Below are positions 14,820 through 20,279 of a DNA stretch of 64,000 nucleotides, piece after piece (the first letter of the stretch is position 1; each line of letters begins with the position of its first letter). The DNA is taken from NCBI GenBank assembly GCA_019115125.1, contig DXEG01000045.1, positions 1-64,000 of the forward strand, in the 5' to 3' direction. Both the position numbers and the translations under genes were made by a program. The notes beneath the pieces were generated by a model, which worked only from the letters and a program-made list of their open reading frames with translations, did no database searches and was not told where the DNA came from. This stretch comes from Candidatus Blautia faecipullorum (GTDB lineage: Bacteria; Bacillota; Clostridia; Lachnospirales; Lachnospiraceae).

Positions 14820-14859
14820 AGCTCAGATGTCTGCTATGCGCACCTTTCTGATTTTATAA

Positions 14860-14867
14860 CATAAAAT
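14860..14867 (+). promoter_or_regulatory. possible sigma-E-type -10 box of the cotJ operon
   Basis: CATAAAAT fits the mother-cell sigma-E -10 consensus and lies 38 bases before cotJA. The -35 half is not convincing. cotJ is known to be sigma-E controlled in Bacillus, so this is a family-based guess. Confidence 0.35.
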
Positions 14868-14904
14868 AAAGAGAAATATAAATAAAACAGAAAGGATGAT
14901 GTTC

Positions 14905-15234
14905 ATGGAAAATTGTAATATGAACCGTCCCTGTGCCCGCCCCTATCAGGCTACCTGCGGGATGGCGAGAAGCTGTCCGGCAGGCCGTCCGGCGGAAAGA
15001 CAGTTTGCATACAGTCAGAACAGACAGCCTTCGTCTTGTGCCTGCCGTATGCGGGGCACATCTTCCAGAGATAAGGAAATGTATGAGCATGTAGATCACA
15101 TGGAACCGGCAATGGCTTACGTTCCCTGCCAGAAATTTACCGATACCTATGATCTTTGCTATGCGCTGAGCGTAGGAACCATCTTTCCTCAGCTTTGCAG
15201 GCCGTTTTGCGGAAAGAGAGGTGTCCGGAGATGA
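14905..15234 (+). CDS. cotJA: spore coat associated protein CotJA
   Basis: First gene of the cotJ operon, encoding an inner coat component made in the mother cell. The 109-aa product has a Cys/Arg/Pro-rich N-terminal part and the conserved C-terminal CotJA domain (residues 70-105: MAYVPCQKFTDTYDLCYALS, then GTIFPQLCRPF). The start at 14905 was preferred over 14896 because AAAGG (14891-14895) is 9 bases away. The stop overlaps the cotJB start by 4 bases. Confidence 0.88.
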   Translation: MENCNMNRPCARPYQATCGMARSCPAGRPAERQFAYSQNRQPSSCACRMRGTSSRDKEMYEHVDHMEPAMAYVPCQKFTDTYDLCYALSVGTIFPQLCRPFCGKRGVRR

Positions 15235-15515
15235 TGAATCATATGCAGTCTGACGCCCGCGCAAGGCTCCTTCAGAGAATAAATGAGGTAAGCTTTGCTG
15301 TAAACGATATCCTCTTGTATCTGGACACCCATCCCTGCTGCGAGGAGGCTCTTGCTTTTTACAAGGAGCAGGCCTGTCAGCGTAAAAAACTGATGACGGA
15401 GTACGCAAGGAATTACGGCCCCCTGACCGTTGACGACGCTCTGGAAACCGATGGAAATACCTGGAAATGGATGGAGCAGCCGTTCCCCTGGGAAAAGGAA
15501 GGAGGGTGCAGATAG
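15231..15515 (+). CDS. cotJB: spore coat protein CotJB
   Basis: Second cotJ gene. The 94-aa product shows the CotJB domain: LLQRINEVSFAVNDILLYLD, then THPCCEEALAFY, and the C-terminal GPLTVDDA and WMEQPFPWE motif. The start is the ATG in the ATGA overlap with cotJA. cotJC begins 3 bases after its stop, so the three genes are translated as a unit. Confidence 0.9.
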   Translation: MMNHMQSDARARLLQRINEVSFAVNDILLYLDTHPCCEEALAFYKEQACQRKKLMTEYARNYGPLTVDDALETDGNTWKWMEQPFPWEKEGGCR

Positions 15516-15518
15516 TCT

Positions 15519-15941
15519 ATGTGGAATTATGAAAAAAGATTGCAGTATCCGATAAATATCAAAACGCCAAACGCGAAGCTGGCCCAGTTTATCATGAGTC
15601 AGTACGGCGGCCCGGATGGCGAGATCAGCGCGTCTCTGCGCTACCTGTCTCAGAGGTTCGCGATGCCGAACCGTATGGCCGCCGCTGTACTGAACGATGT
15701 TGGAACCGAAGAGCTGGCACATCTGGAAATGGTGTCCACGATCGTTCATCAGCTTACCAGGGACCTGTCTATGGAGGAAATTGAGAAAAGCGGGCTTGGT
15801 CCTTATTATATAGATCACACGGTAGGCGTATGGCCCCAGGCGGCGGGAGGAATTCCCTTCAATGCCTGCGAATTTCAGAGTAAGGGGGATCCCATTACTG
15901 ACCTGTTTGAGAATCTGGCAGCAGATGGCGCGAACGCGTAA
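15519..15941 (+). CDS. cotJC: 5' part of split cotJC (manganese catalase-like coat protein)
   Basis: CotJC belongs to the ferritin-like manganese catalase family and is a spore coat component. This fragment encodes residues 1-135 of the family (MWNYEKRLQYP, QYGGPDGEISASLRYLSQRF, DVGTEELAHLEMVSTIVHQL, SKGDPITDLFENLAA). It contains the first Glu and His metal ligands. After position 15925 the frame runs five codons into foreign DNA (DGANA) and stops, giving a 140-aa product instead of about 200. The missing C-terminal third is present at 20060-20279. Joining the pieces at CAGA (15922-15925 = 20056-20059) gives a 627-base frame for 208 aa. Confidence 0.93.
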   Translation: MWNYEKRLQYPINIKTPNAKLAQFIMSQYGGPDGEISASLRYLSQRFAMPNRMAAAVLNDVGTEELAHLEMVSTIVHQLTRDLSMEEIEKSGLGPYYIDHTVGVWPQAAGGIPFNACEFQSKGDPITDLFENLAADGANA

Positions 15942-16077
15942 GGACAACATAATTTACAAAGAACAAAGCGTGCAAGTACACTTCGCGCGCCAGATTTGTA
16001 TATTACAGTTTTACAGTTTAGAACAATTTGGAGTAATTTCCTATAATATAAAAATAAGTGAAGCTTATATCAGGCAT

Positions 16078-16120
16078 ATGTTAAATCTATGTAAAGTTAT
16101 GTTAAATCTATGTATAAGTT
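16078..16120 (+). promoter_or_regulatory. Pho-box-like direct repeats upstream of the Na/Pi gene
   Basis: Four consecutive ATGT-starting units spaced 10-11 bases: ATGTTAAATCT, ATGTAAAGTT, ATGTTAAATCT, ATGTATAAGTT. On the other strand they read TTAACAT/TTTACAT, matching the TT(A/T)ACA-type direct repeats bound by PhoP in Gram-positive bacteria. A possible -10 (TATAAA) lies at 16145-16150. The location ahead of a phosphate transporter supports phosphate control. Confidence 0.6.
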
Positions 16121-16216
16121 CTTGCGGGAATGGAAGAGAACAGGTATAAAGATATAGGTGAATGTTTTATTACTGAAAAAAAAGAAAAAAGTACAGGATA
16201 ACTGTGGAGGGGAAAC

Positions 16217-17857
16217 GTGAAGATTACAGATTTTTTCAGCCTTTTAGGCGGACTGGCATTGTTCCTTTATGGCATGCAGATGATGAGCAGTGGACTGGAA
16301 GCCGCCGCGGGCAATAAGATGAAGCAGATTCTTGAGAAACTGACGGCCAACAGGTTTTTAGGCGTGCTGGTAGGCGCGGGTATCACGGCTGTGATTCAGT
16401 CCTCGTCAGCGACTACGGTCATGGTGGTAGGATTTGTAAACTCGGGTATGATGACCCTGCGTCAGGCGGTTTGGATCATCATGGGCGCGAATATTGGTAC
16501 CACGATTACCGGACAGCTGATCGCGCTGGATATCGGAGCCCTGGCGCCTCTGTTCGCGTTCATCGGCGTGGCGTCTATTGTGTTCATTAAAAAAAGAAAG
16601 ATTCATCACTACGGACTGATCGTTGCCGGGCTGGGTATTCTCTTTATTGGAATGGATATGATGAGTGCAGCGATGATGCCTCTCAGAGAGTCTCCGTCCT
16701 TTGTAGCCCTGATGACCAGATTTTCCAATCCGGTGCTGGGGATTCTGGCAGGTATGGTATTTACGGCGATCATCCAGTCGTCTTCCGCGTCGGTGGGTAT
16801 TTTGCAGGCGCTGTCTTCCAGCGGTCTGATCGGATTGTCCAACGCGGTATTCGTGCTGTTCGGACAGAATATCGGTACCTGTATTACCGCTGTGCTCGCG
16901 TCTATCGGCACCAACCGCAATGCGAAAAGAACTACGATCATCCATCTTCTGTTTAACTTGATCGGTACTGCGCTATTTACTGTCGTTTGTATCGTCACGC
17001 CGCTGACAGCTCTGGTGGAAAGCATCACGCCGGACAATGTGGCGGCGCAGATCGCGAATATGCATACGATCTTTAATGTGGCCACTACGCTGCTGCTTCT
17101 GCCCTTCGGCAACTATCTTGCAAAGCTGGCGACAAAAATTCTGCCGGAGAAGAAAGAAGAAAACGCGGAGTTCATGCATATGGAATATATCCGTCCCATG
17201 GAAATGAAAAGGGAGAATCAGATCGGTCTTTCCGCTATCGCTATGACGGGTATCATCAAGGAGCTCAATCGTATGCTGGGAATGGCAAAGGAAAATGTGG
17301 ACAAGAGCTTTGAAGCGGTAAAATCCGGAAAGACAACTCTGCTTGCGGAGGTTCGGGAGAGAGAAGAATATATCGACTACCTGAATAAAGAAATCTGTAA
17401 ATATATTTCAAAGATCATGGTAAGGGAAAGCAATTCCAAGGATTCCAAATATATGAGCGCTCTGTTTAAGGTATGCGGAAACGTAGAGCGTATCGGAGAC
17501 CATGCCATGAACATCTGCGAGTATACCAAGCACATTGAAGAACGGGGAATTAAGTTCTCAGACGCGGTTATGGTGGAAATCGACGAGATGAGGGAGATCT
17601 GCCACAAGGCGCTGACAGTGCTGGAAACGACCAGGAGAGAAAAAGGATTCCGGATCGACGAGATTGCGGATCTGGAACAGCAAATGGACGATATGACAGA
17701 GGAATTCAGAAGAAAACAGGTAGTCCGGATGCAGAAAGGAAGCTGCTCTGAAGAAGGATGTATTATTTATTCAGAAATGCTGACGGATTTTGAGCGTATC
17801 GGAGACCATATTCTTAATATCGGACAGGAAATGGGAATGGGTAAAGTAAGCGCGTAA
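16217..17857 (+). CDS. Na+/phosphate cotransporter with C-terminal PhoU domain
   Basis: Imports inorganic phosphate with sodium. The 546-aa protein has about eight to ten membrane segments and the duplicated family signature QSSSATTVMVVG (about residues 61-72) and QSSSASVGIL (about 186-195). A cytosolic PhoU-like helical domain (about 340-546) has two ERIGDH-type motifs. It uses a GTG start with GGAGGGGAAAC in front. It is cargo of the element that splits cotJC and is preceded by Pho-box-like repeats. It has no obvious link to recombination, although phosphate limitation often accompanies sporulation. Confidence 0.92.
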   Translation: MKITDFFSLLGGLALFLYGMQMMSSGLEAAAGNKMKQILEKLTANRFLGVLVGAGITAVIQSSSATTVMVVGFVNSGMMTLRQAVWIIMGANIGTTITGQLIALDIGALAPLFAFIGVASIVFIKKRKIHHYGLIVAGLGILFIGMDMMSAAMMPLRESPSFVALMTRFSNPVLGILAGMVFTAIIQSSSASVGILQALSSSGLIGLSNAVFVLFGQNIGTCITAVLASIGTNRNAKRTTIIHLLFNLIGTALFTVVCIVTPLTALVESITPDNVAAQIANMHTIFNVATTLLLLPFGNYLAKLATKILPEKKEENAEFMHMEYIRPMEMKRENQIGLSAIAMTGIIKELNRMLGMAKENVDKSFEAVKSGKTTLLAEVREREEYIDYLNKEICKYISKIMVRESNSKDSKYMSALFKVCGNVERIGDHAMNICEYTKHIEERGIKFSDAVMVEIDEMREICHKALTVLETTRREKGFRIDEIADLEQQMDDMTEEFRRKQVVRMQKGSCSEEGCIIYSEMLTDFERIGDHILNIGQEMGMGKVSA

Positions 17858-17931
17858 ATTCATCCTACAGAAAGCTGTTGCCAGCCGGACTGTCCCACGT
17901 GGATAATCTTAGTGGATAATAGTTGTTGTTC

Positions 17932-17963
17932 AGCGGTCACGCTTCCAGGCGTGACCGCTTTTC
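17932..17963 (+). terminator. terminator after the Na/Pi cotransporter
   Basis: AGCGGTCACGC pairs perfectly with GCGTGACCGCT across a 6-base loop, followed by TTTT. Confidence 0.85.
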
Positions 17964-18224
17964 CATTCAGTCAGCCAGTCGCAAATCCAGGCGCAGGCGG
18001 TGTAATACAGAACCAGATACAAATGGAGGATTTCTATAATCATTTTCCCTTAACTATTTTGGTTTCGATATATGTCCGTATACATCTATTGTAATTTTTG
18101 ACAGCGGAGAAACAATATTACAAGTAGGAGAGAAACCAAGAGCGCATAACAGAGTTGTGCTGGAATAGTGGACTTGCCGCTGCTCATATAGTTGTATCAG
18201 CCATTCTTGGAAAGGGGACTGATC
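17964..18224 (+). other. non-coding stretch with a decayed reading frame inside the element
   Basis: A frame ending at 18173 reads FDSGETILQVGEKPRAH and NRVVLE before a stop, but it has no start codon and an upstream stop. It may be the 3' remnant of a lost cargo gene. Nothing else was recognised here. Confidence 0.3.
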
Positions 18225-18371
18225 ATGGCAAATATTGATAAAAACCAAACTATTTGCAGAAGTGTTTTCAAAAGCGGCGAAAGCACGACCTCAAAAACTC
18301 AATTCACTAAAACGTGGGTTGAAATGATCAATAGAATTGAAAAAAATAAGGCGGTACGCCTTACGAAATAA
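18225..18371 (+). CDS. 48-aa basic protein next to the recombinase; candidate directionality factor
   Basis: The frame starts MANIDKNQTICRSVFKSGES, continues with TSKTQFTKTWVEMINRIEKN and ends in a basic tail. AAAGGGGA sits 6-8 bases before the ATG, supporting expression. I recognise no domain. Its place directly upstream of the serine recombinase, its small size and basic charge fit an excision directionality factor or another accessory protein, but this is inference from position only. Confidence 0.65.
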   Translation: MANIDKNQTICRSVFKSGESTTSKTQFTKTWVEMINRIEKNKAVRLTK

Positions 18372-18373
18372 CA

Positions 18374-18423
18374 ATGACAAGCTGTTTTCTGCATGATATA
18401 ATAATACGCAGGAAGCAGCTTGT
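18374..18423 (+). promoter_or_regulatory. recombinase promoter embedded in an inverted repeat
   Basis: ATGACA (18374-18379), 17-base spacer, TATAAT (18397-18402). The -10 box lies in the 15-base loop of an inverted repeat with arms ACAAGCTGTTTTCTGC (18377-18392) and GCAGGAAGCAGCTTGT (18408-18423). The two mismatched positions would be G-U pairs in RNA. It could be an operator for autoregulation or a hairpin controlling read-through from upstream. Confidence 0.5.
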
Positions 18424-18447
18424 TCCTGTCTCTGAGGAGATATGAAT

Positions 18448-20013
18448 ATGAAAGTAGCTATTTATTGCCGCTTATCCGAAGAAGATAGAAACAAGCAGTT
18501 TGAAACTGACGACAGCAGCAGTATACAGAACCAGAAGGCTATGCTGCTGCAATATGCTATGGAGCAAGGGTGGGAGCTTTACAACATTTACAGCGACGAC
18601 GACTATACCGGCTCTGACAGACGCCGGCCAGAATTTAACCGTTTGTTAAAGGACGCGGAGCGGCACAGATTTGATATTATTCTCTGTAAGACACAATCGC
18701 GTTTTACCCGCGAGCTTGAATTAGTGGAAAAGTATATTCACGGCTTTTTCCCTGTCTGGGGCATTCGTTTCATCAGTATCGTTGACAACGCGGACACCGC
18801 CAACAAGGGGAATAAAAAATCCCGGCAGATTAACGGGCTTGTGAATGAATGGTACTTAGAGGATATGTCTGAAAATATCCGAAGCGTCTTGACGAACAGA
18901 CGGAAAAATGGTTTTCATATCGGCGCCTTTGCCCTTTACGGTTATAAAAAAGACCCGAACCAAAAGGGGCATTTGATAATTGACGAGGAGGCCGCCGCCG
19001 TTGTCCGCGAAGTTTTTACCCTGTTTTCACAGGGTTACGGTAAAACTGCGATCGCCCGTATGCTCAATGACCGGGGCATACCAAATCCAACTGAATATAA
19101 GCGTCTGCATGGATTACGTTACAAGCAGCCGAAAACAAAAAACAGCACACTTTGGAAATATTCTGCTATTTCCGATATGCTGACAAATGAAATCTATATA
19201 GGCAATATGGTACAGGGCAAATATGGGAGCGTTTCTTACAAGACGAAGCAGAACAAGCCCCGGCCAAAAAGTGAGTGGTATATTGTTGAGGGAACTCATG
19301 AACCGATTATTGACCGGGAGTTGTGGAATAAGGTGCAGGCATTAGCCGCACAGAGGGCAAAGCCCTTTGCTGCAGGTACAATCGGTTTGTTCGCGGGAAA
19401 AGCCCGTTGTGCAAACTGCGGATATACAATGCGCTCATCTAAATCTGCCCCGCGGCGCGGAAGCAAACACTACTTACAATGCGCCAGCCGCCATGCGGCG
19501 AAGGACGCCTGTATCGGTTCCTTTATCTCTGTTGACCGATTAGAAAGAATGGTTATCGACGAGATTAACAAACTGGCAGGTGAATATCTTGACAGGGACG
19601 AACTGGAGCAGAACATTGAATTTTGTGATAGCTTACAAGGGCAGAAAAAACGCCTGCTTTCTGATATGTCCGTTTATAAGAAAAAGGCTGCGGATTTTTC
19701 CAAAGGAATCCGGGAGCTTTACCTGGATAAGGTCAAGGGCTTAATATCTGAAAGTGATTATGTTGAAATGTCAAAGGACTTCACTGCGGAGCACGACCGA
19801 CTGGAACGTGTAACTGCGGAGGCCGAAAAGCAGTTAGCCGAAATCGAGGAGAAAATCGCGGCGGGCGATAACCGCCGTCAGATTATTGAGCAATACACAA
19901 ACTTGGAGCACCTTAACCGTGAAATCGTGGAAATACTGATCGATCATATATCAGTTGGGAAACGGATTCCGGGAACAAGAGACGTCCCCATTGAGATTCA
20001 CTGGAATTTTTAA
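18448..20013 (+). CDS. large serine recombinase (site-specific)
   Basis: Catalyses integration and excision by double-strand cuts with a covalent serine intermediate. The 521-aa protein starts MKVAIYCRLSEEDR with the catalytic Ser at residue 10. It then has the resolvase domain (1-150, with SRFTRELELVEKY), the recombinase DNA-binding domain (about 165-290, GYKKDP... to SEWYIVEGTHEPII), a zinc ribbon (about 312-350: CANCGYTM ... YLQCASRH ... C) and a coiled coil (about 370-460). The start at 18448 was preferred over 18442 because GAGGAG is 8 bases away. It is the only recombinase in the element and ends 43 bases before the right boundary, as expected for the enzyme that moves it. Confidence 0.95.
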   Translation: MKVAIYCRLSEEDRNKQFETDDSSSIQNQKAMLLQYAMEQGWELYNIYSDDDYTGSDRRRPEFNRLLKDAERHRFDIILCKTQSRFTRELELVEKYIHGFFPVWGIRFISIVDNADTANKGNKKSRQINGLVNEWYLEDMSENIRSVLTNRRKNGFHIGAFALYGYKKDPNQKGHLIIDEEAAAVVREVFTLFSQGYGKTAIARMLNDRGIPNPTEYKRLHGLRYKQPKTKNSTLWKYSAISDMLTNEIYIGNMVQGKYGSVSYKTKQNKPRPKSEWYIVEGTHEPIIDRELWNKVQALAAQRAKPFAAGTIGLFAGKARCANCGYTMRSSKSAPRRGSKHYLQCASRHAAKDACIGSFISVDRLERMVIDEINKLAGEYLDRDELEQNIEFCDSLQGQKKRLLSDMSVYKKKAADFSKGIRELYLDKVKGLISESDYVEMSKDFTAEHDRLERVTAEAEKQLAEIEEKIAAGDNRRQIIEQYTNLEHLNREIVEILIDHISVGKRIPGTRDVPIEIHWNF

Positions 20014-20059
20014 TAGGAACCCCCGGGCTGAAAGATTGTTCTTATAAGATCGCACCAGA

Positions 20060-20279
20060 GCAAAAGGCCAGGTCAACTTATGACAACATCCTGCGTGTGG
20101 TAAGAGATATCCCGGAAATCGCGGATCCTATCAGATTCCTCCGGGCCAGAGAAGTAGTTCACTTCCAGCGTTTCGGTGAAGCTCTGCGCAGTGTTCAGGA
20201 ACAGCTTGACGCAAAGAATTTTTACGCGTTTAATCCAAGCTTTGACTGTCCCTGTGAGGCGTCCTGCAAAAACGCCTGA
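20060..20279 (+). pseudogene. cotJC: 3' part of split cotJC
   Basis: In frame this encodes EQKARSTYDNILRVVRDIP, then EIADPIRFLRAREVVHFQRF and GEALRSVQEQLDAKNF, with a Cys-containing tail ending CPCEASCKNA and a stop at 20277-20279. It supplies the second Glu and His metal-ligand helix of the catalase fold (REVVHFQRF) that the 5' piece lacks. It has no start codon or ribosome site of its own, so it is silent unless joined to the 5' part. The sequence is undamaged (no frameshift or stop), which argues that it is still under selection. Confidence 0.92.

Follow-up and report, generated by a model that had tools for sequence, protein, structure and literature searches.

In a stretch of 64,000 nucleotides from Candidatus Blautia faecipullorum (NCBI GenBank assembly GCA_019115125.1, contig DXEG01000045.1, positions 1 to 64,000 of the forward strand; hereafter the window) the spore coat gene cotJC is split by a mobile element that carries its own serine recombinase. 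This is the only cotJC found in the genome. The element is likely, with a probability of about three in four, to be cut out of the mother-cell chromosome in the course of sporulation, and cotJC would thereby be restored.

The interrupted gene and the element

The element lies within the coding frame of a sporulation gene, at codon 136 of cotJC, 3' of cotJA and cotJB (Table 1). The 5' part of the gene comprises codons 1-135 and most of codon 136, and its frame continues inside the element as ..DGANA to a stop at 15939-15941. An earlier reading made from the sequence alone (the sequence-only reading) had described two undamaged parts of cotJC 4.1 kb apart, and both frames were indeed open. Recomputation also returned the rebuilt gene of that reading: when 15926-20059 (4134 bp) is taken out and 15925 is joined to 20060, a cotJC frame of 627 nt (208 aa) is obtained. 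CAGA is common to both junctions (15922-15925 and 20056-20059). At the joint the rebuilt protein reads AAEQKARSTYD, in agreement with uninterrupted cotJC in all five congeners aligned. The part regained by rejoining had been described as the second metal-ligand helix; alignment to the Lactobacillus plantarum enzyme showed that it carries instead the later metal-ligand positions E136 and H170. The Mn-binding residues of the catalase we take to be E35, E65/H68, E136 and H170.

Table 1. Positions of the features in the window (., no strand assigned)
Feature	Position	Strand	Basis or details
5' part of cotJC	15519..15925	+	PF05067 profile 1-150, E 2.1e-33; alignment with intact genes
3' part of cotJC	20060..20279	+	PF05067 profile 144-198, E 1.6e-7
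cotJC-intervening element	15926..20059	+	4134 bp
attL	15900..15950	+	half attB, half attP; core GA 15924-15925
attR	20034..20084	+	half attP, half attB; core GA 20058-20059
Serine recombinase (integrase), 523 aa	18442..20013	+	PF00239, PF07508, PF13408, PF14287; phrog_95 integrase
48-aa protein, candidate recombination directionality factor	18225..18371	+	
Sigma-E-like promoter	18165..18188	+	ATA (18165-18167), 17 bp, CATA (18185-18188)
Sigma-A-like promoter, recombinase alone	18374..18402	+	ATGACA (18374-18379), 17 bp, TATAAT (18397-18402)
Inverted repeat around sigma-A-like -10	18377..18423	.	arms 18377-18392 and 18408-18423, 14/16 paired, counted by eye
Sigma-K-like promoter of cotJABC	14842..14868	+	AC (14842-14843), 16 bp, CATAAAATA (14860-14868)
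Na/Pi cotransporter with PhoU domains, 546 aa	16217..17857	+	PF02690, PF01895
cotJA	14896..15234	+	PF11007, E 1.9e-17
cotJB	15156..15515	+	PF12652, E 2.1e-29; longest frame, start predicted

The sequence-only reading had named a second intact cotJC elsewhere as a finding that would speak against it. None was found: PF05067 and a CotJC profile built from 18 intact CotJC proteins matched only these two pieces in the genome (a draft of 67 contigs, 97% complete). In a draft of 67 contigs unrelated DNA might also have been joined into cotJC by the assembly. Such an artefact is very unlikely, to the point of being negligible, because 74 of 80 loci from other assemblies, those of isolates among them, show this junction together with the recombinase and the att arms.

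Attachment (att) sites are present at both ends and the recombinase lies beside the junction, so that recombination between the sites would restore the cotJC frame exactly. The predicted joint of the excised circle is nearly palindromic about GA (16 of 24 pairs symmetric, a value reached by 1 of 20000 shuffles), as expected for the attP site of a serine integrase. The recombinase has the N terminus IYCRLS and the domain order of a large serine recombinase, a resolvase catalytic domain followed by Recombinase and zinc-ribbon domains (PF00239, PF07508 and PF13408 above cut-off).

Three clear genes were found in the 4.1-kb element, encoding a symporter, a 48-aa protein and the recombinase. Of the four element frames scanned with Pfam and NCBIfam only those of the symporter and the recombinase matched, and no phage structural or conjugation gene was recognised. 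The symporter, a Na/Pi cotransporter, had no tblastn relatives in the other loci compared. It was the sole match in its own genome at E 1e-120, and of the 63 remaining genomes of the genus four encode relatives of 59-69% identity at E 1e-120 or below; it thus looks like captured cargo.

The small number of genes and the lack of recognisable phage or conjugation functions could point to a decayed remnant of a larger element, one that has lost excision and leaves cotJC dead in this strain. Related elements range up to larger sizes (3.2-10.1 kb for seven with both ends in one locus, ~17 kb in genome G012 and ~29 kb in G036), which would fit such decay. We nevertheless consider it distinctly improbable, as the recombinase is full length with all domains, the att sites, the small gene and the promoter sequences are present, both cotJC halves are open, and the recombinases of the family are under purifying selection (median dN/dS 0.06, 355 pairs).

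A recombinase family at codon 136 and its predicted control signals

Recombinases at least 66% identical to that of the window were found in four of the 64 genomes of the genus (its own genome, G036 with 93%, G012 with 69% and G080 with 66%), the next best having 41% identity. Each of the four lies beside a piece of cotJC interrupted at this codon, a cut that no other genome of the genus has. Among named genomes, 400 stretches encode relatives of the recombinase; the results given here cover the best 80 (78-92% identity) and are silent on the other 320. According to the record titles the hosts of these 80 belong to Lachnospiraceae and Oscillospiraceae, among others, and include Roseburia faecis, Clostridium fessum, Anaerotignum lactatifermentans and Flintibacter muris.

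In 74 of the 80 loci the recombinase has, no more than 400 bp away, a piece of cotJC whose cut falls at profile position 123-138. In 59 of these the recombinase adjoins the 3' part (plus-type), and in 15 it is inverted and adjoins the 5' part (minus-type). Inverted units were seen, for example, in loci L053, L054, L055, L057, L124, L128 and L131. Of the 59 plus-type pieces, 58 stay open from the cut as far as profile position 175 at least, the remaining one ending with its contig, and all 15 minus-type pieces are open in the other direction, ten of them as far as codon 1 and five as far as a second cut, although the search could have missed broken ones. An earlier count of 19/19 5' pieces without a stop was discarded, since these pieces had been cut out between stops and the window was in the set twice. 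The recombinase-side att arm is kept in both orientations; the symmetry of attP would allow this, with direction set by the two core bases alone. Taken at the level of sequence, these data support a recombinase family dedicated to cotJC.

Six of the 80 loci had no nearby cotJC piece (L056, L060, L076, L087, L117 and L122). In L076 and L122 a piece cut at 123-138 is present farther from the recombinase. In L076 (11557-14382) the interval from the recombinase to the cotJC 3' part contains a full attP-like site as well as a second small-gene remnant, as if two elements stood in tandem. In L056 (1980-2030) and L087 (6111-6200) the recombinase-side att arm enters sequence unlike cotJC, which may be a different integration target. 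Among the loci compared, only L060 and L076 had a complete attP-like site. Relatives of the recombinase were also found on ten IMG/VR contigs, of which five have an adjoining cotJC piece, one has a piece 3 kb off and the remaining four lack one, two of the latter ending at the recombinase. When viral contigs were searched for free circles (attP), a first pattern matched L160 only and a second pattern nothing; the L160 match was rejected, as its DNA placed it in an unrelated region.

Relatives of the 48-aa protein were found by tblastn 5' of the recombinase in 74 of a set of 80 loci whose sequence extends 450 bp or more upstream, viral loci and the window among them. The family consensus (45 sequences) is CKSVFKSGExTTxKxxFTxKWIELIN. 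Searches of Pfam and PHROG gave no family match, and the structural model, with one C-terminal helix (mean pLDDT 75), offers too little to compare with known folds. By its position and conservation the protein is a candidate recombination directionality factor (RDF).

In the window the small gene is preceded by a sigma-E-like promoter sequence. The motif [AC]ATA-N17-CATA, chosen after viewing these same sequences, was found within 450 bp 5' of the recombinase in 55 of 76 loci, compared with a mean of 1.5 (maximum 5) in dinucleotide shuffles. On the opposite strand it occurred in 3 of the 76 loci, and 5' of other serine recombinases of the genus, used as controls, in 1 of 15. (The set of 76 omits L139-L142, which had no small-gene match, and the control set omits L046, whose upstream region is incomplete.) Looser patterns were present in 45 of 65 and 55 of 80 loci and in 1 of 16 controls with L046 included. 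Near the small gene an ATA/CATA pair was seen in 51 of 65 loci, with a spacing of exactly 17 in 45 of the 51. Boxes matching what we take to be the SpoIIID consensus occurred in 19 of 65 loci as against 4.9 (maximum 11) in shuffles, and none in the window; they are only suggestive.

Between the small gene and the recombinase a sigma-A-like promoter sequence would serve the recombinase alone. TATAAT was found in 45 of 87 100-bp stretches 5' of the recombinase, against 7.4 (maximum 16) in mononucleotide shuffles, and TATAAT plus a -35 box in 26 of 87, against 0.5 (maximum 3). Arms like those of the inverted repeat around this -10 box are visible in many of the recombinase upstream stretches.

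A sigma-K-like sequence precedes the cotJ operon. The pattern AC-N15-18-CATAAAATA was present 5' of the operon in 9 of 19 relatives (L016-L018, L020-L024 and L026); among these are the nine congeners with close-type CotJC, and the sequence is missing in two congeners with more divergent CotJC (L012 and L015). In C. difficile, sigma-E promoters have ATA and sigma-K promoters AC at -35, the -10 boxes being much alike; CATATAAT is the -10 box named for a sigma-K promoter, and the cotCB and cotD operons depend on sigma-K (PMC3789822). Both sigma factors are encoded in the genome of the window: SigE scored above the NCBIfam cut-off, and SigK is one open frame (profile positions 24-223 of 227) with a score above the subfamily cut-off and slightly below the equivalog cut-off.

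Cuts at other codons of cotJC

Matches to cotJC were found in 44 of the 64 genomes of the genus, and 22 of the 44 carry an interrupted copy (rows tallied by hand). The cuts fall at profile positions ~33, ~63 and ~135, one or more per cut copy. Sixteen of the 22 genomes have no full-length copy and six have both a cut and a full-length copy. G033, where an apparent cut at 135 came from a match with four stops, was not counted, nor was G007, where the one fragment lies at a contig end. Outside the genus 24 genomes were compared, each from a different family; 17 of them had PF05067 matches, and cut pieces were seen in seven (G040, G046, G049, G052, G054, G058 and G059). In an alignment to solved Mn catalases the three cut sites are at or next to E35, E65/H68 and E136, presumably ligand residues.

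In G036 and G080 cotJC is cut twice, so at least two excisions would be needed per protein. Pieces with cuts at two sites were seen in L143-L145 (G036), L148 (G080), L066, L072, L079, L090, L095 and L136-L138. Near codon 178 a fourth cut was seen in L026, L073, L075, L099 and L105, where FGEAL becomes FGEAN and is followed by foreign sequence; the cut reads FGEA, then NREDC or NHT.

The elements at codons 33 and 63 in congeners (loci L143 and L148-L159, in genomes G036, G080, G023, G013, G073, G083, G027, G086, G077, G004 and G066) measure ~2 to 55 kb. A serine recombinase lies beside the cut end in 10 of the 11 cuts examined at these sites. None was found in the element of G073 (L151), where two candidate frames were rejected as recombinases, leaving four recombinases for codon 63. 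Identity was 52-82% within the codon-33 site (six compared), 42-73% within the codon-63 site (four compared) and 22-31% between sites, the recombinase of the window included. On these identities each of the three cut sites has its own recombinase lineage. The strict sigma-E-like motif precedes three of the four codon-63 recombinases and none of the six codon-33 recombinases.

Proposed programmed excision, its alternative and known elements

If the element is excised in the mother cell, the following sequence of events may be proposed. In growing cells the recombinase would be made alone from the sigma-A-like promoter and would keep the element in place. Activation of sigma-E in the mother cell would then lead, from the promoter before the small gene, to the 48-aa candidate excision factor and more recombinase, attL and attR would recombine at the GA core, and a circle with the palindromic attP would be released. 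Later, sigma-K would transcribe the rejoined cotJABC. The forespore would retain the element, which would thus be inherited.

Several observations weigh against this scheme, and some of them would suit an ordinary mobile element for which cotJC is merely an attachment site, with rare or stress-related excision and a knocked-out cotJC whose loss carriers tolerate. The first is horizontal movement. Recombinases 92% identical to that of the window occur in Blautia sp. An249 and Anaerotignum lactatifermentans, yet those of two congeners are only 69% and 66% identical. In 12 Oscillospiraceae loci recombinase divergence did not follow cotJC divergence (Spearman 0.03), which left vertical descent of the element in that family unsupported, and recombinase dS (0.19-0.82) was mostly lower than cotJC dS. 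From these divergences we conclude that the element family moves between species; its relatives on IMG/VR contigs are in line with an ordinary element.

The second observation concerns selection on the gene. The median dN/dS was 0.22 for split cotJC 3' pieces (84 pairs) and 0.19 for 5' pieces, with only 2 usable pairs; intact cotJC gave 0.06 (4 pairs). With a mobile family the low values of the halves may predate insertion, and they do not prove rejoining. Selection on the halves was dropped as proof, as most dS values were saturated and the elements seem to have arrived recently. In-frame rejoining, the main argument of the sequence-only reading, is weak alone: precise excision of any element inserted by a site-specific integrase restores its target, and this is not evidence of a sporulation programme. 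Furthermore, B. subtilis lacking cotJC reportedly shows no apparent defect (PMC12122855), so that there could be little selective pressure to rejoin the gene.

The control signals have limits as well. The sigma-E-like motif, besides its choice after inspection, is missing in its exact form from 21 of 76 loci, and its conservation partly reflects shared ancestry. Its absence before all six codon-33 recombinases means that a sporulation programme is not generalisable to all cotJC elements. The RDF role of the 48-aa protein is a candidate one, assigned by position and conservation.

An ordinary element is nonetheless rather unlikely. Against it stand the conserved sigma-E-like promoter before the 48-aa gene, missing in 14 of 15 control recombinases, the open state of the adjoining cotJC pieces (with the reservation about broken ones made above) and the convergence of three distinct recombinase lineages on one late spore gene. 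Mother-cell excision, the proposal of the sequence-only reading, is partly supported, by a dedicated recombinase family, a split sole cotJC, a conserved small gene, sigma-E-, sigma-A- and sigma-K-like promoter sequences and a skin-like layout; that the element is excised, at that time and in the mother cell only, we infer. The horizontal mobility of the family and the cuts at several codons go beyond what that reading contained.

The closest parallel is the skin element of C. difficile, which interrupts sigK. There the recombinase is constitutively expressed from a sigma-A promoter, while the RDF is controlled by sigma-E and SpoIIID and excision follows its production (PMC5025042). The layout predicted here from sequence is the same, with a serine recombinase behind a sigma-A-like promoter, a separate small candidate RDF behind a sigma-E-like promoter and a probable mother-cell gene that excision would restore. 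It cannot be skin proper, as it is located in cotJC. Unlike skin, it interrupts a structural spore gene and not a sigma factor gene, its small protein matches no Pfam or PHROG family, it is 4.1 kb long, and the species among which its recombinase family moves belong to more than one bacterial family.

The gin element in gerE of Bacillus cereus is likewise a non-phage element with a serine recombinase and an RDF (GirC and GirX), and its excision in sporulation has been demonstrated; unlike the cotJC element it is 28.6 kb long, has three recombinase genes and interrupts gerE (PMC5595907). SP-beta (spsM), phi12-5 (kamA), vfbin (spoVFB) and yin (yabG) are also mobile DNA within sporulation genes and are excised by serine recombinases, but are mostly prophages or prophage-like (PMC6957869, PMC10747680). 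In C. difficile R20291 the attR of prophage phi027 borders cotG, which encodes a CotJC-like Mn catalase; the passages concerned describe the prophage as adjacent to cotG and mention no interruption that is rebuilt in sporulation (PMC12122855, PMC11222575).

The intervened genes listed in these sources are sigK, spsM, spoVFB, spoVR, gerE, kamA and yabG (PMC6957869, PMC10747680). The term cotJ does not occur in PMC6957869, and cotJC is not named in passages on known elements. A literature search, with preprints and most subscription journals outside its scope, gave no publication joining cotJC, an intervening element and sporulation, and broader searches, judged largely from abstracts, brought known elements only, so that absence from print is not shown. 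We rate the logic as known (sigK, spsM, gerE, yabG) and as new the cotJC target, the dedicated and widespread recombinase with its candidate RDF, and the occurrence of several lineages on one gene.

Programmed DNA excision in sporulation has so far been reported for a small number of genes, chiefly of Bacillus and C. difficile, and here a dedicated recombinase family with a sigma-E-type promoter sequence recurs at one cotJC codon in Lachnospiraceae and Oscillospiraceae. If excision occurs as proposed, developmental genome rearrangement would be common in the gut microbiota, annotations of cotJC as a broken gene would be wrong in many genomes, and the element would offer a compact recombinase with a candidate excision factor and a set of att sites.

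We further lean, somewhat less firmly, towards the view that in gut Firmicutes cotJC generally acts as a landing pad for DNA that is excised in development. Three or more serine recombinase lineages, one per site, would each recognise a different one of the most conserved motifs of the gene, at the metal-ligand positions (codons ~33, 63 and 136, perhaps also ~178), and would spread between species, with excision timed in the mother cell. Some mother cells would then cut out two or three elements for each coat catalase, and somatic genome rearrangement at sporulation would be commonplace and not a Bacillus curiosity. As a separate observation, an order-wide search showed genomes of other families with five to eight CotJC matches: G423 (8), G440 (6), and G450, G564 and G568 (5 each).

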